Origin: Telluribacter humicola
GTDB lineage: Bacteria > Bacteroidota > Bacteroidia > Cytophagales > Spirosomataceae
NCBI RefSeq assembly: GCF_017355935.1
Contig: NZ_JAFIQT010000003.1
Coordinates: forward strand, 503,450-567,449
Length of the DNA: 64,000 nucleotides
Reading direction: 5' to 3'
The notes below the pieces were generated by a model. That model made no database searches. It was not told where the DNA came from and worked only from the letters and a program-made list of their open reading frames with translations. Shown here piece after piece: positions 3,379 to 52,239 of this stretch (position 1 is its first letter; each line of letters begins with the position of its first letter). A program made the translations under genes and the position numbers.

Positions 3379-3870
3379 TTAGAGTAATTTTCTGAGTTTG
3401 TTTTTGATCCGGTAAATCCTTACCCGCAGGTTCACCGCGTTGATACCCACTACCCTGGATATTTCTTCGTAATCCAGTTCGTCCAGTACCATCATGATGA
3501 TCAGCCGTTCCAGCTCGGGTAGCTTGCCGATGGCCTGGTACAAAGGCTGGTACTCCCGTTCGCCCTCCTCCAACCATTCAAACTGGTCTGACAAGGCTAC
3601 AGCCTCCTGCGCTACTTTCTCCTTCCTGCGGGTAGTACGGATGTACATCAGGCATGTGTTGACGGTGATGCGGTAGATCCAGGTCTTGGGAGAGGCTTCA
3701 CTCCGAAACTGCGGCAGCGCCCGCCAGACATTAATGAATATCTCCTGTGCGAGGTCCTTGGCCTGGTCCCGGTCCCCCTGCACGTAGCCCAGGCACACTT
3801 GGAGTACCATAGGGCGGTACTGCTGGTACAGCGACTCAAAGAGCGGTAACTGGGCGGGAGAACTACTCAT
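3379..3870 (-). CDS. ECF-type RNA polymerase sigma factor
   Basis: A 163-residue sigma-70 family protein of extracytoplasmic-function type. Region 2 spans about residues 10-78, with the DLAQEIFINVWR core-binding segment and a PKTWIYRITVN segment for -10 recognition. Region 4 spans about 105-160 and contains the DYEEISRVVGINAVNLRVRIYRIKNKLRKLL-type helix-turn-helix, described here only by its key residues YEEIS and RIKNKL. Its start overlaps the end of the upstream hydrolase gene by 8 bases, and the next gene starts 11 bases after its stop. The three genes are therefore probably co-transcribed. Confidence 0.93.
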   Translation of the reverse strand: MSSSPAQLPLFESLYQQYRPMVLQVCLGYVQGDRDQAKDLAQEIFINVWRALPQFRSEASPKTWIYRITVNTCLMYIRTTRRKEKVAQEAVALSDQFEWLEEGEREYQPLYQAIGKLPELERLIIMMVLDELDYEEISRVVGINAVNLRVRIYRIKNKLRKLL

Positions 3871-4702
3871 TTTTCAGAAAGGCGTCTATTTTTCCGTATA
3901 ACCAGTCGGGCTGATCAAACATGATAAAGTGCCTGCTGGCGGGAGCGATATGGATGGTTTTGGCTGGTAGCCCGGCGTACTGCTTCTGAAAGTTTTCCAG
4001 GACTACCTTCTCATCCGGAAACGAAGCACCCAGGATCAGCACTTTGGCCTTTACACTGGGAAGTACTTCCCGCAGGTCCAGTTTGAGGAGGTCGGTGTAC
4101 CCATACACGTAGGTGGGTCGATGGGCTTCCAGAGTCCACCGGGCGAGGGTGTCGGCCATGGCCTTATTACTGGTCATGTTGGCAGCCATGCCTGCGGCCA
4201 TCTGGGCAAACTGCGCATCGGGCATCTCCAGCATCTGCTTGTTGTACGAGTTTTCGTAGGAGATCTGTGAGGCCGGTACGCCGGGCATCATGAGCGCCCG
4301 CATGCAGGGAATGGCATCCACCAGTACCAGTTTGGTAACGCGGTCGGGCAGAGCGGCGGCTATGTCTACCGCCAGGTTACCTCCCATACTGTGCCCAATC
4401 AGGGTCAGATTGTCTAATTTTTCCTGTTTAATGTAGTCCAGCAGCTCCTGCCGGAGGCGGGGGTACCAGGGCGTTTCAACGGGAGGTATGCCGTTGAAGC
4501 CGGCGTAGGAAACCACGTGGCTCTCCACCCTGGGGAGGTGGCGGATAGTTTCATTCCAGACGGAGCCCGGAGATGTAAAACCGGGCAGAAAAAGAACAGC
4601 AGTACCTTTGCCTTTCTTCACCACCCGAATAGCCTGGGGCTGTGCGAAGGCCAGGGCGGCCATTAGTAGCAAAGCGATAGTACATGTGATAGTCCTCATC
4701 AT
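3863..4702 (-). CDS. secreted alpha/beta hydrolase
   Basis: A 279-residue protein with a clear signal peptide (residues 1-20, ending ALAFA before Q21). The alpha/beta hydrolase domain has an HGF/PGF-type oxyanion strand (VLFLPGFTSPG, 36-46) and the nucleophile elbow GHSMGG with Ser105. Asp in GASFPDEK and His in SRHFIMFDQP complete a credible triad. It resembles the BioH/epoxide-hydrolase/lipolytic alpha/beta-fold enzymes. It is the first gene of a leftward module and overlaps the ECF sigma gene by 8 bases. A periplasmic hydrolase whose gene leads a sigma-factor operon could be its target or part of its sensing; that is inference. Confidence 0.88.
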   Translation of the reverse strand: MMRTITCTIALLLMAALAFAQPQAIRVVKKGKGTAVLFLPGFTSPGSVWNETIRHLPRVESHVVSYAGFNGIPPVETPWYPRLRQELLDYIKQEKLDNLTLIGHSMGGNLAVDIAAALPDRVTKLVLVDAIPCMRALMMPGVPASQISYENSYNKQMLEMPDAQFAQMAAGMAANMTSNKAMADTLARWTLEAHRPTYVYGYTDLLKLDLREVLPSVKAKVLILGASFPDEKVVLENFQKQYAGLPAKTIHIAPASRHFIMFDQPDWLYGKIDAFLKNE

Positions 4703-4767: not shown

Positions 4768-5457
4768 TCACCCAAAACTATACAGAAAAGGAGCCTTGTT
4801 GGCGGCACCGGAGTACTGCTTTTCGTGGCGCTGCAACACGCCGAGGCTCAGCATTTTCCGCTGGAAGGTACCCCTATGGAGCTTTTCGCCCAGGATGGCC
4901 TCGTACACATGCTGCAGCTCCTTCATGGTAAAGCGGGCCGGGAGCAGATTGCCTCCTACCAGTTTCCGGTTAATATTTTCCCGCAGGGTTTCCAGGGCTT
5001 TTTGCACAATCTGCGCGTGGTCGAGCATTAGCGGGGGCAGCTGGTCTACATCGTACCACCCGCAGGAGTCTGACAGGTCGTCGGGTGTAGGTATTACTTC
5101 CGCATAATTAATCAGAGCATAGTAGGCTACTGATATAAATCGGTCCAGTAACCACGACAGGTCTTCGTCGGGTACCTTATTGGCCTGGATAATCTGCTTC
5201 ATGACCTCGGGCTTGTAGCGTGCTACATCACCAAATGTATAAAATTGCTCGAGAAAGATCTGGTCCAGCCCCGTCCGCTCCTTCAGCCCCCGTTGTACAG
5301 CATCGTTCAGATTCTCATTCGTACGGACAAATCCTCCGGGCAAAGCAAACAGGCCGGTGTTGTGATATTCCAGTATCAGTATTTTCAGTTTCTCTCCCGA
5401 AAAACCAAAAATTACCGAGTCGTAGGCTATGTGATGTAGGTAATCGTCTCCCTGCAT
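4768..5457 (-). CDS. Nudix-domain transcriptional regulator (NrtR/AraR-like)
   Basis: A 229-residue protein with an N-terminal Nudix-fold domain (about 8-140) and a C-terminal winged helix (about 160-225, including FTMKELQHVYEAILG, the usual start of the NrtR-type DNA-binding domain). The Nudix box at 42-64 is degenerate: the RE and EE pairs that bind metal read RG (56-57) and ER (60-61), so catalysis is unlikely and the domain probably senses a ligand. In Bacteroidota such proteins control sugar or NAD genes. It is divergent from a carboxylesterase, with a perfect palindrome at 5533-5567 between them that probably is its operator. Confidence 0.88.
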   Translation of the reverse strand: MQGDDYLHHIAYDSVIFGFSGEKLKILILEYHNTGLFALPGGFVRTNENLNDAVQRGLKERTGLDQIFLEQFYTFGDVARYKPEVMKQIIQANKVPDEDLSWLLDRFISVAYYALINYAEVIPTPDDLSDSCGWYDVDQLPPLMLDHAQIVQKALETLRENINRKLVGGNLLPARFTMKELQHVYEAILGEKLHRGTFQRKMLSLGVLQRHEKQYSGAANKAPFLYSFG

Positions 5458-5502: not shown

Positions 5503-5510
5503 CAAAACTA
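5503..5510 (-). promoter_or_regulatory. candidate -7 promoter element for the Nudix regulator
   Basis: Read leftward this is TAGTTTTG, an exact match to the Bacteroidota -7 consensus TAnnTTTG, about 46 bases before the regulator start. The large palindrome at 5533-5567 sits where the -33 element would be, so a bound repressor would cover this promoter. No clear TTG -33 element is visible. Confidence 0.45.
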
Positions 5511-5532
5511 AATAGGATTATTTTAAAGAACT

Positions 5533-5567
5533 AATTATTATTGTCGCAAAATGCGACAATAATAATT
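5533..5567. promoter_or_regulatory. perfect 16+16 bp inverted repeat, probable regulator operator
   Basis: The arms at 5533-5548 (AATTATTATTGTCGCA) and 5552-5567 are exact reverse complements with a 3-base spacer, aaa. It lies in the divergent spacer, 13 bases before the carboxylesterase ATG at 5580 and upstream of a -7 element for the Nudix regulator. There is no T-tract, so it does not look like a terminator. A site this long and symmetric fits a dimeric winged-helix regulator acting on both genes. Confidence 0.75.
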
Positions 5568-5579
5568 CTAAATCATTTT

Positions 5580-7214
5580 ATGAAGCAGATCCTTTATACA
5601 GTAGCTCTTGCGTTGGGAGTATCTCTGGCTAGTCAGGCCCAGAACACCAATGCTTTTGCAGTACAAACCAAGATCGAACCCGGCATTATCGAGGGTGACT
5701 ACGATACCAAGACCGGTATCCAGACCTACTTTGGCGTTCCCTTTGCCAAACCACCCGTTGGAAACCTGCGCTGGAAAGCCCCCCAGCCGGTTGATAAGTG
5801 GACGGGCGTAAAAGAAACTCGTAAGTTTGGCCCACGCCCCATGCAGAAGCTGGTATTCGGGGATATGAACTCCCGCTCCAACGGTGTCAGCGAAGACTGC
5901 CTGTACCTGAATGTGTGGACGCCGGCTAAGCGTGCTACTAAGGACCTTCCCGTTCTGGTGTATTTCTATGGTGGTGGCAACGTAGCCGGCGACGGCTCGG
6001 AGCCCCGCTACGACGGTGAGGCCATGGCAAAAAAAGGCATTGTAGTAGTTACCTGCAACTACCGCCTCAATATCTTCGGCAACTTTGCCCATCCTGAATT
6101 ATCGGCTGAGGCTCCCTACAAAGCATCCGGCAATTACGGCTACCTCGACCAGGTGGCGGCCCTGCAGTGGGTACAGAAGAACATCGCGCAGTTTGGTGGT
6201 GATCCTAAAAAAGTAACTATCGCGGGCGAGTCGGCCGGCTCTATATCGGTAAGCTACCAAATGGCGTCTCCTCTATCGAAAGGCCTGATAGCCGGAGCCA
6301 TTGGCGAAAGTGGAGCGGGTATCAGCCCTACGATGGCCCCGGTACCCCTGGCCGAAGCCGAGAAGCAGGGAGCTGAATTTGCAAAGAATGCAGGCGCACC
6401 TACCCTGAAGCAGTTGCGGGCGCTGTCGTCACGCGACCTGTACGAGATGTACGACGAGTCGAAGCGTTTTGGTTTTCCGGTAGTACTGGATGGCTACTTT
6501 CTGCCCAAGTACCTGCCCCAGATCTTTGCCGCCCGTGAGCAGGCCCAGGTACCCTTGCTACTAGGCTGGAACTCAGCCGAAATTCCGGCCGGTGCCTTTA
6601 TGTACGGTAAGCCCAATATCCCCGAGAACTTTATTGAGCGCGTGAAGGCCGAGTACCCCGATACCCACCAGGAAGTACTGAAACTTTACCCCCATGGTAA
6701 CGAGAAAGAAGTGGAACTATCGGCTACGGCCCTGGCCTCTGACCGCTTCATCTCCTACTCGACCTGGAAATGGTTTGACCTGCACCGTAATAACTCTAAT
6801 CAGCCGGTATACCGCTACCTGTACAGCAAGCTGCGCCCACCATTGGTAGACAATACCCTGACTCCGGGTCTGGCGGGAGGTACTTTGAAGAAAACTTCAA
6901 CTACCCCTGAGCCTCCCAAGGCCGTGGGTGCGCCACACGCCTGCGAAATCGAGTACTGCATGGGTAACCTCCACCTGATCAAAGAGTACGCCTGGACCGA
7001 AGAGGACTACAAAGTATCAGAAACTATGTCGGAGTACTTTGCTAACTTCATCAAAACCGGAAATCCCAACGGAGCTAAGCTACCTACCTGGGAGGCGGCC
7101 AAAGCGGGTGATGCTACCCCACCGGTTATGATCATCGACACCGTATCGCGTACCGAAAAAGCAAAAGACGATGCTCGTTACGATTTCCTGGATAAGGCAT
7201 ACAAGAATAAATAA
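5580..7214 (+). CDS. secreted type-B carboxylesterase
   Basis: A 544-residue protein with a signal peptide (about 1-20, ending SLASQA). It shows the type-B carboxylesterase signatures EDCLYLNVW (105-113) and GESAGS with nucleophile Ser218. An oxyanion loop reads YGGGNVAGDG (130-139), and a late His in GAPHACEIEY is the likely triad base. The length is normal for the family. The ATG at 5580 is chosen over the in-frame TTG at 5541, because the latter lies inside the palindromic operator and would put non-signal residues before the signal peptide. It is followed 26 bases later by the isomerase-like gene, probably as one operon under the Nudix regulator. The ester substrate is unknown; plant or carbohydrate esters are possible. 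Confidence 0.92.
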   Translation: MKQILYTVALALGVSLASQAQNTNAFAVQTKIEPGIIEGDYDTKTGIQTYFGVPFAKPPVGNLRWKAPQPVDKWTGVKETRKFGPRPMQKLVFGDMNSRSNGVSEDCLYLNVWTPAKRATKDLPVLVYFYGGGNVAGDGSEPRYDGEAMAKKGIVVVTCNYRLNIFGNFAHPELSAEAPYKASGNYGYLDQVAALQWVQKNIAQFGGDPKKVTIAGESAGSISVSYQMASPLSKGLIAGAIGESGAGISPTMAPVPLAEAEKQGAEFAKNAGAPTLKQLRALSSRDLYEMYDESKRFGFPVVLDGYFLPKYLPQIFAAREQAQVPLLLGWNSAEIPAGAFMYGKPNIPENFIERVKAEYPDTHQEVLKLYPHGNEKEVELSATALASDRFISYSTWKWFDLHRNNSNQPVYRYLYSKLRPPLVDNTLTPGLAGGTLKKTSTTPEPPKAVGAPHACEIEYCMGNLHLIKEYAWTEEDYKVSETMSEYFANFIKTGNPNGAKLPTWEAAKAGDATPPVMIIDTVSRTEKAKDDARYDFLDKAYKNK

Positions 7215-7240: not shown

Positions 7241-8200
7241 ATGACAACGAGAAGAGATTTTATAAAAAGCACAGGCTTACTAGCGGCAGCCACTTTTTCA
7301 CCCTTAGAAAATTGGATGGATCGTTTGAAGAAAGAGGATAAACTGGGCATTCAGCTTTTCTCCATTCCCAAAATGCTCTCCGAAGATTTCGTGGGTGGAA
7401 TTAAGATGCTTTCGGACCTGGGTTATAAGGAAATTGAAATGTTTGGTCCCTTTCCGTTCAGTGCGGAGAAGGCAAAAAAAGGATGGGAAGGTGCCGCTAA
7501 GATGTTAGGTTTTAGCGGAAGCGGGTACTTTGGCCGGGATGTGAAGGAAGTCAAGAAGATCCTGGCTGACCACGGCCTCAAAACCACCGGTACCCACACC
7601 GACCTGGATACGCTGCTACAAAACATGGGGCCGCTGGCCGAAGCCGCCAACCTACTAGGCCAGAAGTATGTGACGCTCCCCGCCATACCCGACGATAAGC
7701 GACGGACGCTGGATGACTACCGGAAGATGGCCGACACCTTCAACACCATTGGTGCCAGTGCCAAAAAGCACGGCGTGCGGTTTGGCTACCACAACCACGG
7801 CTACGGATTCACAGCCATTGATGGTAAGGTACCGTTTGAAGTACTGGTGGACAACACCGACCCTAACCTGGTTTTCCTGGAGATGGATATTTTCTGGACC
7901 ACCGCCGCGGGAGCTGATCCAATCAACTACCTCAACAAGTACTCCAACCGGTACAAGATGCTGCACCTCAAGGATATGAAGGAGAAGAAGACATTTAGCG
8001 GCGACGGAAACGATGCTTCTCAATGGTTCCCGCTCTTTTCTGTTATGACCTCCGCCGGTGAGGGCGTCATGGATCTGGAAGGGATTGTCTCTACCGCTAA
8101 GAAGATAGGTGTAGAACACTACTACGTGGAGCAGGATCTGGTGGCTGCCCCAAAAGAGGCGCTGGGCAAAAGCGCCACCTACCTGAAAGGCAAAATCTAA
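7241..8200 (+). CDS. Tat-exported sugar phosphate isomerase/epimerase-like TIM barrel
   Basis: A 319-residue protein beginning MTTRRDFIKSTGLLAA, a twin-arginine export signal. The rest is an AP-endonuclease-2/xylose-isomerase-like TIM barrel: GIQLFSIP, a metal-region strand FGYHNHGYGF, then LEMDIFWTTAAG and KMLHLKDMK, the usual His/Asp/Glu metal ligands. Exported proteins of this family are frequent in Bacteroidota and Planctomycetota. Their reactions are mostly unassigned, though some act on oxidised sugars. It follows the carboxylesterase by 26 bases and ends at a strong terminator, so the pair forms a two-gene transcription unit. Confidence 0.9.
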   Translation: MTTRRDFIKSTGLLAAATFSPLENWMDRLKKEDKLGIQLFSIPKMLSEDFVGGIKMLSDLGYKEIEMFGPFPFSAEKAKKGWEGAAKMLGFSGSGYFGRDVKEVKKILADHGLKTTGTHTDLDTLLQNMGPLAEAANLLGQKYVTLPAIPDDKRRTLDDYRKMADTFNTIGASAKKHGVRFGYHNHGYGFTAIDGKVPFEVLVDNTDPNLVFLEMDIFWTTAAGADPINYLNKYSNRYKMLHLKDMKEKKTFSGDGNDASQWFPLFSVMTSAGEGVMDLEGIVSTAKKIGVEHYYVEQDLVAAPKEALGKSATYLKGKI

Positions 8201-8223
8201 TTAGTATAGTTTCCTTATTGCAG

Positions 8224-8255
8224 GCCACCCGACTATGAGTCGGGTGGCTTTTTTT
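8224..8255 (+). terminator. rho-independent terminator after the isomerase-like gene
   Basis: An 11-bp perfect stem (8224-8234 with 8238-8248), a three-base loop atg, and a run of seven T at 8249-8255. It closes the carboxylesterase/isomerase unit. Confidence 0.9.
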
Positions 8256-8470: not shown

Positions 8471-9253
8471 ATGGAAGAAAACGAAAAACTGCAACTGACC
8501 GAGGACGAGAAGAAACTGTTTGAGGACCTCATGCCGGAAGACTTGGACGAAATCCTCGATACGGGTGTAAACCGGCGTCACTTCCTGAAATTACTGACCC
8601 TAACCGGCGGAGGAATCCTGGCTTACCAGGCGGCCGCGGCCGAGCAGGTACTGACCCGACCGCTCAACGCACCACCGGCTGAATTACTACCGGCTAGTAT
8701 TGAAAATGGGGTTGATGTCTCATTTAAGGTTAATGGAGCAGCTAAAAAGCTGACGGTAGACTCCCGGATGACGCTGCTGGATACCCTGCGCGAACGGCTG
8801 GAACTTACCGGCTCCAAAAAAGGCTGTGACCACGGGCAGTGCGGCGCGTGTACGGTACTGGTGGATGGTCGCCGGGTGTTGTCATGCCTTACGCTGGCCG
8901 CCAGTTGTGAAGGCCGGTCGGTCAAAACCATTGAGGGGCTGGCCCAGGGCAATGAACTGCATCCGGTACAGGCAGCATTCATCAAAAACGATGGTTTTCA
9001 GTGTGGGTTCTGTACGCCCGGGCAAATCTGCTCGGCGGTAGCCGTACTGGAAGAGGCCAAAAGAGGCGAAGCCAGCTACGTGACCGAAAACGTCCGCAAA
9101 ATATCCGGAGCCATTCCTCTCTCAGATGAGGAGATACGGGAGCGAATGTCGGGCAACCTGTGTCGCTGCGGCGCTTACCCCAATATTGTAGCGGCAATCC
9201 GCGAAGTATACAGCGGGAAACCCGTAGAGCCAACCTGGAAATTTGTAGGGTAA
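8471..9253 (+). CDS. periplasmic aldehyde oxidoreductase, 2Fe-2S subunit (PaoA-like)
   Basis: A 260-residue protein of the xanthine oxidase small-subunit family. An acidic N-terminus is followed by a twin-arginine signal, NRRHFLKLL (34-42). A plant-ferredoxin type 2Fe-2S site follows (Cys119, 124, 127, 139). The second helical 2Fe-2S domain has CGFC (178-181) and CRC (231-233). Together with the next two genes it matches the architecture of the E. coli periplasmic aldehyde oxidase PaoABC, where only this subunit carries the Tat signal and the folded complex is co-exported. The aldehyde substrate is not known. Confidence 0.93.
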   Translation: MEENEKLQLTEDEKKLFEDLMPEDLDEILDTGVNRRHFLKLLTLTGGGILAYQAAAAEQVLTRPLNAPPAELLPASIENGVDVSFKVNGAAKKLTVDSRMTLLDTLRERLELTGSKKGCDHGQCGACTVLVDGRRVLSCLTLAASCEGRSVKTIEGLAQGNELHPVQAAFIKNDGFQCGFCTPGQICSAVAVLEEAKRGEASYVTENVRKISGAIPLSDEEIRERMSGNLCRCGAYPNIVAAIREVYSGKPVEPTWKFVG

Positions 9254-9264
9254 GTACCAGGATC

Positions 9265-9342
9265 GCACTATTGTCCTCCTGAGCGAAGTCGAAGGATAAG
9301 CAACTCATCCGCACTACTGTCACCCTGAGCAAAGTCGAAGGG
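9265..9342. repeat. two copies of a 32-base dispersed intergenic repeat
   Basis: Copies at 9265-9296 and 9311-9342, in the same orientation and 46 bases apart, agree at 27 of 32 positions. The shared core reads CCTGAGCRAAGTCGAAGG. They sit between the 2Fe-2S and FAD subunit genes. From memory, sequences with this core occur as dispersed intergenic repeats in many bacterial genomes; no mobility function is evident here. Confidence 0.7.
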
Positions 9343-9418
9343 CCAACTGCTCCACTTAGAATACATAGCAGGACTTTTTCCAACTGACCCGTAGCATCAA
9401 AACTACTTGCAGAATCTC

Positions 9419-10426
9419 ATGAGACCATTTAAATATACAAATGCTAAAGACGTTCCCAGCGCCACCCGGCTCCTGACGGCCAATCCGGGAGGGCGGTTTT
9501 TGGCGGGCGGTACCAATCTGCTGGACCTGATGAAGGAAGATGTGGAGCGGCCCAATGAGTTAATTGATATTTCCCGCTTAGGCCTTGACCAGATTAAAAC
9601 CATAGCGACCGGCCCCCACAAAGGCGGGCTGTCCATCGGGGGATTGGGCAAGAATACCGATGCGGCCAATCATGCGTTGGTACGCCAGCACTACCCGCTG
9701 CTTACGCAGGCTATACTGGCGGGGGCTTCCGGGCAAATCCGGAATATGGCGACCAACGGAGGCAACCTGTTGCAACGCACCCGCTGTCCGTATTTCTATG
9801 AAGTATCCATGCCCTGCAACAAACGCGAGCCCGGCACTGGCTGCGGTGCGCTGGAAGGTATCAACCGGCTGCATGCCATCTTTGGCTGGTCTGATAAATG
9901 CATCGCCGTGTACCCTTCGGATATGTCAGTGGCACTGGCCGCGCTGGACGCGGTGGTAAGGGTCCGGGATGCCGCCGGTCAGGAACGAACCATTCCTTTT
10001 GGCGACTTCCACCGCCTACCAGGCGATACCCCCGAAAAAGACACCAATCTTAATCATGGTGAACTGATTACGGCCATCGAACTACCTAAGAACAACTTTG
10101 CCGAAAAGTCCTACTACCTCAAAGTCCGGGACCGGGCTTCGTATGCTTTTGCCCTGGTTTCGGTCGCGGCGGCCCTCGAGGTAAGTAACAACCGGATTGA
10201 TCAGGCCCGGATTGCGATGGGAGGGGTGGCGCACAAGCCCTGGCGGGCCCTACAGGCAGAACAGATGTTAGTGGGAAAAGAACCTACGGAAGCTAACTTC
10301 AGGCTGGCCGCCGAAGCCGCGATGGCGGACGCAAAGCCTCTTGAGCATAACAAGTACAAAGTGGAGCTGGGCCGACGAAGCATTGTGCGGGCTCTTCAAG
10401 TAGCCATGGACGGAAAAAGGTCCTGA
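9419..10426 (+). CDS. periplasmic aldehyde oxidoreductase, FAD subunit (PaoB-like)
   Basis: A 335-residue FAD-binding subunit of the molybdopterin dehydrogenase family. It has the FAD motif FLAGGTNLLD (27-36) and a second FAD contact GNLLQRTRCPYF. Residues 123-142 form a loop with three cysteines (RCPYFYE, MPCNK and GTGC) at the place where PaoB and 4-hydroxybenzoyl-CoA reductase hold an extra 4Fe-4S cluster. I see only three Cys in the segment, so coordination is uncertain. The ATG at 9419 starts directly on the conserved RPFKY opening; the TTG at 9407 adds four residues. It follows the small subunit and precedes the large one by 21 bases. Confidence 0.92.
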   Translation: MRPFKYTNAKDVPSATRLLTANPGGRFLAGGTNLLDLMKEDVERPNELIDISRLGLDQIKTIATGPHKGGLSIGGLGKNTDAANHALVRQHYPLLTQAILAGASGQIRNMATNGGNLLQRTRCPYFYEVSMPCNKREPGTGCGALEGINRLHAIFGWSDKCIAVYPSDMSVALAALDAVVRVRDAAGQERTIPFGDFHRLPGDTPEKDTNLNHGELITAIELPKNNFAEKSYYLKVRDRASYAFALVSVAAALEVSNNRIDQARIAMGGVAHKPWRALQAEQMLVGKEPTEANFRLAAEAAMADAKPLEHNKYKVELGRRSIVRALQVAMDGKRS

Positions 10427-10447
10427 TTTTTAAAAGCCCTTAATTGT

Positions 10448-12574
10448 ATGGAAGAGAAAAATAAAATGGTCGGTATGCCCGTCAGTCGCATCGATGGGAT
10501 TCTAAAGGTTACCGGCAAGGCTGACTATTCCGTGGACCACCCGGTGACGAATGTCGCCCACGCCATGATTTTCAAAAGCACGATTGCCGCCGGAAAGATT
10601 CGGGACATTGACACCGCCGCGGCCGAGAAAGCGCCCGGCGTACTAGCCGTCATTACTCATAAGAACGCGCCTAAGCTGAACGAAAAAGGGGGTATCCGGG
10701 GCGGAGCCATGCTGCAAAGTCCGGTTATTGAATTTTATGGTCAACATATAGGTCTAGTGGTAGCCGAAACCTTTGAACAGGCCCGGCACGCCGCACGCCT
10801 GATCAAGGTGGACTATGAAGAGGCTTCACCCAGGACCCACTTTGAAAAACTATCCAAAGAAGCCGTAACACCCAAAGACAAAGAACGGGCGGATGTGAAG
10901 CGCGGGGATGTGAAAGCGGCACTTGCCAACGCCGAATACAAAGTGGAGGAGGTATACGAAACGCCCATGGAGCACCACCACCCCATGGAACCCCATGCCA
11001 CCATCGCCGAATGGAAGGGAGACCACGTGACCTTGTATAACAGTGCCCAGATTGTATCCGGAGCGCAGAACGCCGCCGCGTCCACGCTTAACCTCAAACC
11101 GGAGCAGGTACGTATTGTATCGCCCTACCTCGGCGGTGGCTTTGGTTCAAAGGGGGGGCAATGGGCCAATCTGGTGCTGACGGCGGTAGCGGCCAAGATG
11201 GTGAACCGGCCGGTACAACTGGCCCTCACTCGCCATCAGATGTTCAATTCGGTTGGGTTGCGACAGCGTAACCATCAGAAGGTAAGTCTGGCTGCTACCA
11301 AAGACGGTAAACTAACGGCCCTGGCGCATGAAACCACCACCCACTGCGCCATTGACAATGAGTTTGTGGAACCCTGCGGCGATTGCTCCAAGGTCATGTA
11401 CGAGGTACCCAACTCGCTCATCAGCTACCGGGTGGTACCCATGCATATCATCCTGCCTACCTACACGCGCGGGCCGGGAAAATCCACGGGAAGCTTTGCG
11501 CTGGAATCAGCGATGGACGAGCTGGCTTACAAGCTAAAAATGGATCCCATCGAGTTCCGCATCAAAAATGAGCCGGAGCGCGACCCCACCAGTGGCAAAC
11601 CCTGGTCGTCACGGACTACGGTGCAATGCCTGCAAGAAGGTGCCAAAGCATTTGGCTGGGAGAAGCGCAAGCCCGAACCCCGCCAGAACCAGCAGGGCAA
11701 CTACCTAATTGGCTACGGGGTGGCTTGCGGTACTTACCCGGCACACCAAAGGCCCAGCTCCGCGCTGGTAAAACTGGACCGAAAGGGCAATGAAGTGACC
11801 GCCACCGTTGAGCTGGCCGCAGCCGATCTCGGCACCGGTACCTACACCATCTTGGCCCAGACCGCCGCCGACGCCCTGGGTCTGCCTATGAATAGGATAA
11901 CCGTCAAAATCGGTGATTCTGATTTACCGCCTGCCGCCGGTTCGGTGGGTTCGGTGGGAGCCACCAGCTACGCCAACGTAGTCAATGATGCCTGTATAAA
12001 AATCACAGATGAGCTGATGGCCAAATCGGGTAAGCAGTTTTTTACCAGACCGACAGCCGCCCAGTTGATGCTTTCTGAAAAAGTCACTGAGTTCCAGACA
12101 CGGGCTGACTCAAAAGAACTGGAGGGTGCCGATGAGTACTCATCGCACAGCTTCAACGCTAACTTTGCGGAGGTACGGGTAGATATGTATACTGGCATGG
12201 TACGCGTGGACCGCTTCCTGGCCGTAACCGGAGCGGGCAAAATACTGAATCCTAAAACGGCCAATTCACAGGTGATTGGAGGCGTAGCCTGGGGCATAGG
12301 TATGGCCTTATCCGAAGAGTCAGTAGTTGACCCGCGCTGGGGCAACTTCGTCACCCGCTCCCTGGCCGATTATCACGTTCCTTCCAATCTAGACATAGGT
12401 ACCATGGAAGCCATTTTTATCCGGGAGGAGGACAAACATTCAAATAGATTAGGCATAAAAGGATTGGGGGAAGTCGGCATCGTGGGCGTATCCGCGGCCG
12501 TTGCCAACGCCGTATTCAATGCCACCGGTAAACGAATTAGGGAACTCCCCATCACACCAGACAAACTCATATAA
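10448..12574 (+). CDS. periplasmic aldehyde oxidoreductase, molybdenum subunit (PaoC-like)
   Basis: A 708-residue large subunit of the xanthine oxidase family that binds the molybdopterin cofactor and carries out hydroxylation of the substrate. Visible signatures are PVSRIDG...TGKADY at the N-terminus, GGGFGSKGG (cofactor loop), TRGPGKSTGSFALESAMDEL, the glycine-rich GSVGSVGATSY, and GLGEVG near the C-terminus, whose Glu is the catalytic base. It has no signal of its own, consistent with co-export with the Tat-tagged 2Fe-2S subunit. A PaoD/XdhC-type cofactor-insertion chaperone is not next to the operon. Confidence 0.93.
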   Translation: MEEKNKMVGMPVSRIDGILKVTGKADYSVDHPVTNVAHAMIFKSTIAAGKIRDIDTAAAEKAPGVLAVITHKNAPKLNEKGGIRGGAMLQSPVIEFYGQHIGLVVAETFEQARHAARLIKVDYEEASPRTHFEKLSKEAVTPKDKERADVKRGDVKAALANAEYKVEEVYETPMEHHHPMEPHATIAEWKGDHVTLYNSAQIVSGAQNAAASTLNLKPEQVRIVSPYLGGGFGSKGGQWANLVLTAVAAKMVNRPVQLALTRHQMFNSVGLRQRNHQKVSLAATKDGKLTALAHETTTHCAIDNEFVEPCGDCSKVMYEVPNSLISYRVVPMHIILPTYTRGPGKSTGSFALESAMDELAYKLKMDPIEFRIKNEPERDPTSGKPWSSRTTVQCLQEGAKAFGWEKRKPEPRQNQQGNYLIGYGVACGTYPAHQRPSSALVKLDRKGNEVTATVELAAADLGTGTYTILAQTAADALGLPMNRITVKIGDSDLPPAAGSVGSVGATSYANVVNDACIKITDELMAKSGKQFFTRPTAAQLMLSEKVTEFQTRADSKELEGADEYSSHSFNANFAEVRVDMYTGMVRVDRFLAVTGAGKILNPKTANSQVIGGVAWGIGMALSEESVVDPRWGNFVTRSLADYHVPSNLDIGTMEAIFIREEDKHSNRLGIKGLGEVGIVGVSAAVANAVFNATGKRIRELPITPDKLI

Positions 12575-15602: not shown

Positions 15603-16523
15603 ATGAATAAAGTACTTGCTCTTCTACTCAGCCTTACGGCCTTAGGAGCCATAGCGCAGCCTAAGCAGCTATGCGTCACGGTAGATGACTTACCTACGGT
15701 AGAGTATGGGGAAGGAAATCAGAAAGAGATTACTCAGAAGCTGGTCGCTCACTTCCAGAAGTACAACATACCTGCCATTGGATTTGTAAATGAGGGAAAG
15801 CTGTACGAGTCGGGGAAGCTGAAAGCGGAACGGGTAGCGCTTCTACACCAGTGGCTGGACAACGGGTACGAGTTAGGAAATCACACATACGGACATCCGA
15901 GCTACCACCAAACGCCTTTTAGTTCATATTCAAAAGACGTACTGAAAGGTGCAGTGGTAACCCCGCCGCTGAGCAAAAAAGCGGGCTTGCCGTGGAGGTA
16001 CTTCCGACACCCGTTCCTGCACATTGGCCAGAATCAGGCGCGGTATGATTCGCTCAGCTCCTTCCTGACTCAACATAATTTCATTGAAGCTCCGGTCACC
16101 ATTGACAACGATGATTATCTGTTTGCCAAAGCTTACTCCAATGCACACAAAAAGAATGATAAGGCGCAGATGCAGCGCATTGGTTCGGACTACGTAAAGT
16201 ACATGGAGGCCAAAGTCTTTTTTTACGAGCAGGCGAGCGATAAATTATTTAACCGGCAAATTCCGCAGGTCCTGCTGATCCACGCTAATCTGCTTAATGC
16301 TGACTACCTGGATGACCTGGCAGAGATGTACAAGCGAAACGGGTACACATTCGTAGATTTACACACAGCCCTCCGGGATAAAGCTTACCTGGAAAAAATA
16401 ACCAAATTCGGCAACTACGGCATTTCCTGGATTGACCGCTGGGCCCTCAGCCGCTCCGTTCCAAAAGAATTCTTTGCCAATGATCCAGAAACTCCGGCCT
16501 ATATTGTCAATGCAGCAAAGTAG
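15603..16523 (+). CDS. secreted polysaccharide deacetylase
   Basis: A 306-residue protein with a signal peptide (about 1-18, ending GAIA) and a NodB-like deacetylase domain. Motif 1 reads TVDDLPT (catalytic Asp and metal Asp), motif 2 ELGNHTYGHPSYH supplies the two metal-binding His, and YFRHPFLHIG contributes motif 3. The catalytic His motif appears as LLIHANLLNADYL. The ATG at 15603 is used; an upstream TTG adds two residues. The gene starts 31 bases after the cytochrome fusion gene and probably shares its transcript. It likely removes acetyl groups from an N-acetylhexosamine polymer in the periplasm. Confidence 0.9.
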   Translation: MNKVLALLLSLTALGAIAQPKQLCVTVDDLPTVEYGEGNQKEITQKLVAHFQKYNIPAIGFVNEGKLYESGKLKAERVALLHQWLDNGYELGNHTYGHPSYHQTPFSSYSKDVLKGAVVTPPLSKKAGLPWRYFRHPFLHIGQNQARYDSLSSFLTQHNFIEAPVTIDNDDYLFAKAYSNAHKKNDKAQMQRIGSDYVKYMEAKVFFYEQASDKLFNRQIPQVLLIHANLLNADYLDDLAEMYKRNGYTFVDLHTALRDKAYLEKITKFGNYGISWIDRWALSRSVPKEFFANDPETPAYIVNAAK

Positions 16524-16547
16524 AGACGCAAGATTTTGCGTCTCTAC
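16520..16547. repeat. 12-bp-arm palindromic element overlapping a stop codon
   Basis: Perfect arms at 16520-16531 (GTAGAGACGCAA) and 16536-16547 with loop gatt. The TAG stop of the deacetylase lies inside the left arm. It separates two convergent genes and could end transcription, but there is no strong T-tract on either side. The arm resembles a short palindromic repeat that I recall from intergenic regions of other bacteria. Confidence 0.7.
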
Positions 16548-16556
16548 TACAAGGCC

Positions 16557-17260: not shown

Positions 17261-18625
17261 ATGCGTGAAAAAATCTGGTGGGTGACGGGTAAGGTACTTG
17301 ATAAACTGATCTGGCTCCGGCACAAGATCATCAATCAGGAAGTACGGACTATAACATTACAGGCGCTCCCGTTTTGGGTAGCTTCGTTCGTGACGGGGCT
17401 TGTAGCGGTAGGCTACGAAAAGCTCTTTGCCTGGTTTGAACGCATGGGGCGCGAGATGGTTCTGCATACGCCGTGGGTTATTTTTATTACAGCCCCTGCC
17501 TTCTTTACACTATCGTGGTGGTTGGTCAACAGGTTTGCTCCAACGGCCCGGGGAAGTGGCATACCCCAACTGATGGCTTCTATCGAACTGGCCAATCCCA
17601 AGCAGGATGACAAGGTTGACCAGCTACTTGGCCTTCGTATCGCCCTCGTAAAAGTACTAAGTAGTCTCAGTCTGTTAGTGGGAAATGGGGCTATTGGCCG
17701 CGAAGGTCCTACTTTGCAGATATCTGCTTCCATATTCCGATTTGTCAACCGGCTGCTACCGAGCTACTGGCCTAAGGTATCCAAGCGCATAATGCTCGTA
17801 ACGGGTGGTGCATCGGGGCTGGCGGCCGCTTTTAATACGCCGCTTGGTGGTATTGTTTTCGTGGTAGAGGAACTTACCAAAACCCATATCACCTACTTTC
17901 GCACGGCGGTGTTTGCTTCGGTGATCATTGCCGGTATGACAGCCCAAGCACTTCTGGGGCCTTATCTCTACCTGGGCTATCCCCAAATTACTCCCGTTGG
18001 CTTTTCATTTATCGGGGTAGTCTTGCTGGCAGGTATCCTATCCGGCCTGGCGGGCGCCTTACTGGCCAAAGTGATACTCTATATAAGCGACTGGAAAACC
18101 CTCCATATCAAGGGTCAAAAACAACAGGCTCTGTTCGTAGCTACTCTAGGGTTGCTGTTTGCCTGTCTGATCTACTTTTCGGGTGTACAGGCGGGTGGAA
18201 GCGGTAAAGAACTTATGAACCGGCTGCTGTTTACACCGGAGAAAAACATTCAGTGGTACGAATTTCCGGCGCGTTTTATCGGGCCAATCCTAAGCTATCA
18301 TAGTGGCGGAGCGGGTGGAGTATTTGCTACTTCACTCAGCGCTGGTGCCACGTTGGGAGCCGGTATTGCGGAGCTGCTACAGCTAGCCCGTGAAAACTAC
18401 AACCTGGTGATGCTGGTAAGCATGGTAGGCTACCTCACCGGCGTTACCCGCTCGCCTTTTACCTCAGCTATTCTGGTATTGGAGATGACCGACCGCCACT
18501 CTGCCATATTTTACCTGCTCCTGGCGGGGATGGTCGCTAACCTGATGGGCTACTACGTTGACCGGAAGTCGTTCTATGAGCATCTGAAGGAGCATTTCCT
18601 GAAACCCACAGTGTCCAAAGCATAA
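17261..18625 (+). CDS. ClC-family chloride channel or H+/Cl- exchanger
   Basis: A 454-residue membrane protein with the ClC signatures GSGIPQ (98-103), GREGPT (146-151, gating Glu148) and FVVEEL with Glu203/Glu204, the internal proton glutamate position of CLC-ec1. Both glutamates suggest a proton-coupled exchanger rather than a passive channel. The third filter motif, normally GxFxP, reads GGVFATSL here, with Thr in place of Pro. No C-terminal CBS domains are present. A RBS-like AAAGGA directly precedes the ATG. The last six codons lie inside a long palindrome that acts as the terminator. Confidence 0.93.
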   Translation: MREKIWWVTGKVLDKLIWLRHKIINQEVRTITLQALPFWVASFVTGLVAVGYEKLFAWFERMGREMVLHTPWVIFITAPAFFTLSWWLVNRFAPTARGSGIPQLMASIELANPKQDDKVDQLLGLRIALVKVLSSLSLLVGNGAIGREGPTLQISASIFRFVNRLLPSYWPKVSKRIMLVTGGASGLAAAFNTPLGGIVFVVEELTKTHITYFRTAVFASVIIAGMTAQALLGPYLYLGYPQITPVGFSFIGVVLLAGILSGLAGALLAKVILYISDWKTLHIKGQKQQALFVATLGLLFACLIYFSGVQAGGSGKELMNRLLFTPEKNIQWYEFPARFIGPILSYHSGGAGGVFATSLSAGATLGAGIAELLQLARENYNLVMLVSMVGYLTGVTRSPFTSAILVLEMTDRHSAIFYLLLAGMVANLMGYYVDRKSFYEHLKEHFLKPTVSKA

Positions 18626-18654
18626 AGTAGTACTTTATGCTTTGGACACTGTGG
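18606..18654 (+). terminator. 49-base near-perfect palindrome straddling the clc stop codon
   Basis: Arms of 24 bases (18606-18629 and 18631-18654) are exact reverse complements around one central G. The left arm encodes the last residues of the ClC protein and its TAA stop. The hairpin is very stable and is presumably the terminator, though no T-run follows. Confidence 0.75.
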
Positions 18655-31023: not shown

Positions 31024-31073
31024 TTATAAAAGCGAAAGCCCCCGGAAATTTCCGGGGGCTTTCGCTTTTATAA
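31024..31073. terminator. 50-base perfect palindrome, bidirectional terminator
   Basis: Positions 31024-31073 form a perfect palindrome of 25+25 bases with GC-rich centre CCCCCGGAAATTTCCGGGGG and A/T-rich ends that supply a T-run in both directions. It separates convergent genes. Its outer arms AAAAGCGAAAGCC recur in the terminator at 43356-43400. Confidence 0.92.
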
Positions 31074-43355: not shown

Positions 43356-43400
43356 TAAAAAGCGAAAGCCGGTTGATGATCAACCGGCTTTCGCTTTTTA
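43356..43400. terminator. bidirectional terminator between convergent genes
   Basis: A 21-bp stem (43356-43376 with 43380-43400) with a three-base tip tga and A/T ends that give T-runs in both directions. The outer part AAAAGCGAAAGCC equals that of the terminator at 31024-31073. Confidence 0.92.
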
Positions 43401-52183: not shown

Positions 52184-52239
52184 ATATCACTATAAAAAAG
52201 TCCTGCGACCAGAGCCGCAGGACTTTTTTATAGTGATAT
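52184..52239. terminator. bidirectional terminator between the sigma operon and purU
   Basis: Perfect 24-bp stem (52184-52207 with 52216-52239) with an 8-base loop and A6/T6 tracts on both sides of the GC core. Confidence 0.93.

Follow-up and report, generated by a model that had tools for sequence, protein, structure and literature searches.

The analysed stretch (hereafter the window, 64,000 nt of a Telluribacter humicola contig, NZ_JAFIQT010000003.1) contains a divergent pair of genes encoding a Nudix-type transcriptional regulator and a carboxylesterase, whose start codons lie at 5457 (minus strand) and 5580 (plus strand). The genes and the terminator of the esterase operon are:

4768-5457, minus strand: NrtR/AraR-type regulator of 229 aa with a Nudix-like N-terminal domain and a winged helix (Pfam, phmmer)
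5580-7214, plus strand: type-B carboxylesterase of 544 aa (Pfam COesterase, 4.4e-110), the constant divergent neighbour of the regulator
7241-8200, plus strand: TIM-barrel protein resembling sugar isomerases/lyases (Pfam AP_endonuc_2, 2.2e-17)
8222-8250, plus strand: probable intrinsic terminator of the esterase-TIM-barrel operon, with a 13-pair stem and a T run

The esterase begins with an N-terminal signal peptide, as judged by eye, and the TIM-barrel gene, located 26 bp behind it, encodes a twin-arginine motif (RRDFIK). An earlier sequence-only reading of this DNA had treated this Tat-exported, isomerase-like protein as part of the controlled unit. The gene does lie directly behind the esterase, but its standing as a defining part of the system is weakened: this arrangement is shared with Telluribacter (L013) and absent within the flanks of ten other neighbourhoods examined, so that among these neighbourhoods it is confined to the genus. 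The gene after the esterase codes for a protein of 1096 aa in Persicitalea and for one of 535 aa, carboxylesterase-like by eye, in Lewinella, while most other flanks in relatives hold the esterase alone or unrelated genes. Beyond the operon terminator, three consecutive genes (8471-12574) appear by eye to encode a xanthine-dehydrogenase-type oxidoreductase with its iron-sulphur, FAD and molybdenum subunits. The regulator is followed downstream by two genes that overlap by a few bases (3379-4702), one for an exported alpha/beta hydrolase and one for an ECF-type sigma factor (Sigma70_r2, Sigma70_r4_2), and the same pair lies behind the regulator in Telluribacter (L013).

Pfam assigned the regulator to NrtR_WHD (7.2e-18), NUDIX (1.7e-08) and AraR_C (4.6e-06), with the domain combination of the NrtR family, PF00293 and PF21906, above the gathering cut-offs. 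Its Nudix box is impaired, another hallmark of this family, and reads RGLKERTGL against the expected REUXEEXGU; position 57 is never Glu and position 61 always Arg in 74 relatives. Because two glutamates of the box are lost, the protein should be a sensor rather than an enzyme. The palindromic operator that NrtR-family proteins have at their own or a neighbouring promoter is likewise recognizable here, as far as sequence can tell. Among solved structures, phmmer retrieved BtAraR, the L-arabinose regulator of Bacteroides thetaiotaomicron (BT0354; PDB 5BS6, 5DD4, 5DDG, 5DEQ; PMC4666351), as best match (5BS6, 1.4e-30), followed by SoNrtR, the ADP-ribose-responsive NAD regulator of Shewanella oneidensis (PDB 3GZ5, 3GZ6; 3.1e-19). 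Both share the architecture of a Nudix-like domain joined to a winged helix. The relevant parts of the protein are:

5005-5433, minus strand: Nudix-like domain, residues 9-151, predicted to be ligand-binding and not catalytic
4774-4953, minus strand: NrtR winged-helix DNA-binding domain, residues 169-228 (Pfam)
4858-4878, minus strand: codons 194-200 (HRGTFQR), equivalent to the base-contacting residues 178-184 of BtAraR (alignment, PMC4666351, co-variation)

The regulator fits neither of these characterized types. Lys179, Arg180, Asn181 and Lys184 are absolutely conserved in BtAraR orthologs (PMC4666351) and correspond here to R195, G196, T197 and R200, such that the recognition helix reads HRGT instead of DKRN; L-arabinose is held in BtAraR by Arg34, Arg86 and His131 (PMC4666351), for which the regulator has Tyr31, R80 and H147. 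Since recognition and ligand residues both differ, we rejected the assignment as an AraR ortholog. The gene linkage differs as well: BtAraR controls a regulon of arabinose genes, whereas the present regulator neighbours the carboxylesterase and the TIM-barrel protein and has a single target site next to the divergent esterase. An NAD-type, ADP-ribose-responsive NrtR was rejected on the NCBIfam NtrR equivalog NF050029, against which the regulator scored 93 bits, far below the cut-off of 400; unlike for SoNrtR, no NAD genes were seen in its neighbourhood. BtXylR (BT0791), a predicted NrtR-family xylose regulator linked to xylose catabolic genes (PMC3878776, PMC4666351), likewise belongs to the sugar branch of the Bacteroidetes NrtR family, and is set beside the present regulator by description only.

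Eight further NrtR winged-helix matches are present in the genome. One of them is truncated (L012 1501-1626; G000:C17:888116-888241), covers positions 20-61 within an open frame of 76 aa, lies about 5.7 kb away from a paralogue of full length and is probably a decayed copy. A regulator paralogue (L079, 5627-12169) has an exact GTGT-N7-ACAC about 60 bp upstream and is followed by genes that resemble glycoside hydrolases by eye, making this a likely AraR/XylR-type sugar operon in the same genome.

The spacer between the regulator and the esterase is occupied by the following elements, of which the promoter boxes are predictions:

5503-5510, minus strand (read 5510-5503): predicted -7 box of the regulator, TAGTTTTG, matching TAnnTTTG (sequence, surrounding conservation)
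5531-5534, minus strand: predicted -33 region of the regulator, TTAG, overlapping the palindrome edge (sequence, relatives)
5533-5567, no strand: perfect 16+3+16 palindrome, the proposed operator (sequence; core kept in relatives)
5533-5548: left arm of the palindrome, AATTATTATTGTCGCA
5552-5567: right arm of the palindrome, TGCGACAATAATAATT
5536-5543, plus strand: predicted -7 box of the esterase, TATTATTG, inside the left arm (one-sided extra conservation; consensus of PMC9723704)
5539-5561, no strand: conserved operator core, TATTGTCGCA-AAA-TGCGACAATA (information content, 35 non-redundant orthologs)
5543-5546, plus strand: half-site GTCG, in the register of GTGT in the BtAraR operator (Table 2 of PMC4666351)
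5554-5557, minus strand: second half-site GTCG, 7 bp from the first (sequence compared with PMC4666351)

The palindrome had been described as perfect, far beyond chance, placed in a divergent spacer and ending 13 bases before the esterase ATG, and each of these points held. Its arms are fully complementary over 16 nt (16/16, 100%) around 3 nt, with the dyad centre at 5550. Perfect stems peaked at 11 bp across 30 Markov-1 simulated windows with matching dinucleotide composition; when a spacer with 75% AT was simulated 4000 times, the maximum was 13, with five reaching at least 12 and none reaching 16. A whole-genome search, the check named beforehand, found the half-site TTATTGTCGCA at one place in the 6.56-Mb genome, the regulator-esterase spacer itself, and the whole palindrome is likewise single-copy. 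This result leaves the proposal of a wider regulon unsupported, as the half-site is found nowhere else in the genome. Whether the genome was searched with the palindrome (up to three mismatches), with a loose palindrome or with the half-site, no second operator emerged convincingly; the three loose palindrome matches (TTGTTACTAAATGTAACAA, TTGTGTCTGGTGGTTACAA and TTGTGACTGATAGTAACAA) did not convince as second sites.

We compared loci from 30 public contigs with one another and with loci from a survey of the family that covered 151 genomes. Of 84 divergent regulator-esterase loci, a set that includes a few near-duplicates, 81 carry the motif TTGTnnCA-N3-TGnnACAA, with at most two mismatches, no more than 260 bp ahead of the regulator; the remaining three (L091, L095, L097) carry TTGTCTCAAAATGCGACAA about 325-460 bp upstream. 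This conservation supports the carboxylesterase as the target that had been suggested. Among the 151 genomes, 108 have a close regulator homologue and 89 of these carry the motif, against 10 of the 43 that lack one (Fisher p = 1.2e-11). The same pattern found no operators for more distant homologues (Epilithonimonas, L024-L036). Within the palindrome, conservation covers about 23 inner bp (5539-5561, -11 to +11 from the dyad centre), which are nearly invariant in 35 non-redundant close orthologs except for the -4/+4 bases and the spacer. Conservation of the outermost symmetric bases does not extend to both arms in relatives. On the arm facing the esterase promoter, conservation extends further, with +11, +13 and +14 invariant in the 35 orthologs, and there is no such extension on the other side.

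This one-sided conservation fits a -7 box of the esterase, TATTATTG, which has one mismatch to TAnnTTTG, the -7 promoter consensus of Bacteroidetes (PMC9723704). Given this predicted box, the esterase transcript would start near the dyad centre; no -33 box was found for this promoter. For the regulator, the stretch around the -7 box TAGTTTTG is likewise conserved in relatives, and 20 nt further upstream, at the edge of the palindrome, comes TTAG (5534-5531), replaced in many relatives by TTGG or TTGC. The suggested overlap of the palindrome with the regulator's -33 region is therefore plausible, and we infer the positions of both promoters on these grounds. A scan for E. coli-type sigma-70 promoters, which does not cover the Bacteroidetes promoter type, returned no more than chance.

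With the palindrome over the predicted esterase -7 box and abutting the predicted regulator -33 region, the geometry fits repression of both promoters. The direction of control itself cannot be read from sequence, and the regulator might bind the palindrome and activate the esterase instead. We consider this unlikely: a site that covers the predicted -7/start region of one gene and abuts the -33 region of the other combines two classic repression geometries, and published accounts present BtAraR and the NAD-linked NrtR proteins as repressors or as proteins that ligand releases (PMC4666351).

In the solved complex of BtAraR with DNA, 7 bp separate the half-sites GTGT and ACAC; the G is contacted by Lys179, the -5 pair by Asp178 and Arg180, and the -4 pair by Asn181 and Lys184 (PMC4666351). 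The present half-sites, GTCG-N7-CGAC, have identical spacing and register and differ in sequence, GTCG replacing GTGT. The invariant Arg195, equivalent to Lys179, is matched by an invariant operator G, and H194 takes the place of Asp178. We ranked 190 variable columns of 74 non-redundant regulators that have a site by their association with operator bases, a procedure in which shared ancestry is only partly controlled. For base -4 and for the dinucleotide -5/-4, columns 194 and 197 come first and second; for base -5 taken by itself they come first and third. With both half-sites pooled, 197 is first, 194 second and 196 sixth; with the 35 closest orthologs only, 196 is first, 194 third and 197 down at 25th. 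As controls, no helix column is in the top nine for the spacer and the left flank; for bases outside the core, column 196 is second for +16/+17 and column 197 first for +24/+25. Individual helices go with individual half-sites: NRAN with GTTTC; NRSS with GTTGC or GTCGC; HRSG mostly with GTAAC/GTATC; xRxN mostly with GTATC; and RRTT mostly with GTCTC/GTCAC and never with GTCG. Paralogues with a D..N helix, as in BtAraR, have the exact GTGT-N7-ACAC in three cases (L079, L037, L038). In 37 nearest-neighbour pairs, joint change of helix and operator exceeded expectation: both changed in 14 and neither changed in 12, the mixed classes holding 3 and 8 (Fisher p = 0.01).

Several sites are frequent in divergent spacers, so a different transcription factor might own the palindrome, its conservation beside the regulator being a coincidence. 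This reading is improbable: the site co-occurs with the regulator and has the exact BtAraR register, the operator bases associate with the recognition helix over other residues, and a single copy in the genome is what a local regulator would lead one to expect. Taken together, co-occurrence, register and co-variation indicate that the palindrome is read by the adjacent regulator, lending comparative support to the sequence-only reading that had paired the two.

The palindrome might instead act as RNA, as an attenuator, stability element or terminator in the transcript of either gene. A 16-bp stem would fold stably, and a terminator scan lists the palindrome as terminator-like on the minus strand, yet the divergent spacer has no upstream gene to terminate and the tail AGTTCTTTAA is a poor T run. 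Furthermore, an esterase mRNA starting near the dyad centre, as predicted, would contain one arm only. The half-sites, each individually conserved, disagree with one another at -4/+4 in 49 of 74 non-redundant relatives, which breaks the stem there; we rejected an RNA hairpin, which we regard as very improbable, because the half-sites are conserved and their pairing is not. A mobile or repetitive element, or a chance inverted repeat, can be dismissed almost entirely: the window does contain several other long palindromes, but this one is single-copy in 6.56 Mb, exceeds all simulations and is conserved in position in dozens of genomes, copy number and conservation together excluding a repeat element.

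The other palindromes in the window are of several kinds. Two long perfect ones (31024-31073 and 43356-43400, arms of 25 and 22 bp) have the stretch AAAGCGAAAGCC/GGCTTTCGCTTT in common at their ends and look like strong bidirectional terminators. Two further perfect inverted repeats, at 18606-18654 and 52184-52239, have arms of 24 bp around loops of 1 and 8 nt, and a palindrome with 13-bp arms, AGTAGAGACGCAAGATTTTGCGTCTCTACT, lies at 16519-16548.

We conclude that the palindrome is very probably the operator of the adjacent NrtR/AraR-type regulator, which would repress itself and the esterase and be freed by a small sugar-like ligand. That the protein binds and represses, where the promoters lie and what the ligand is are all predictions from sequence comparison. 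A regulator dimer would place one winged helix on each GTCG half-site and, lying over the esterase -7/start region and beside its own -33 region, repress both promoters. The ligand would most likely be a sugar, or a compound resembling one, produced from the substrate of the exported esterase (and here also of the TIM-barrel protein); on entering the non-catalytic Nudix pocket it would rotate the winged helices and release the DNA, in the way L-arabinose acts on BtAraR (PMC4666351). Two of the three BtAraR pocket residues are kept (Arg86 as R80, His131 as H147), and both proteins have an impaired Nudix box. Because Arg34 is replaced by Tyr31, however, the ligand is not readable from sequence, and the regulator also differs from BtAraR by about 20 residues inserted behind R80, a feature common to nearly all relatives with the same operator type. 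That the ligand is sugar-like but not L-arabinose, and perhaps derives from the esterase substrate, is about an even prospect; the role in sugar use suggested for the locus would likewise derive from the AraR relationship and the pocket residues.

The type of switch proposed here is already known; its esterase branch and the joint change of protein and DNA across relatives look new, and the open-licence literature searched held no description of this branch. We tentatively suggest, as a possibility somewhat short of an even one, that it is an undescribed, widespread Cytophagales branch of NrtR proteins: a one-site repressor of an exported carboxylesterase that senses a new, esterase-released ligand, with residues 194, 196 and 197 setting two variable operator bases and so providing a recognition code for the family. 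Through this analysis, a common branch of NrtR-type regulators that is apparently undescribed gains a proposed operator and target, and the dozens of natural helix-operator pairs collected are an attractive data set for such a code. The ligand of this dedicated regulator would, in turn, give a handle on the role of exported type-B carboxylesterases in these bacteria.
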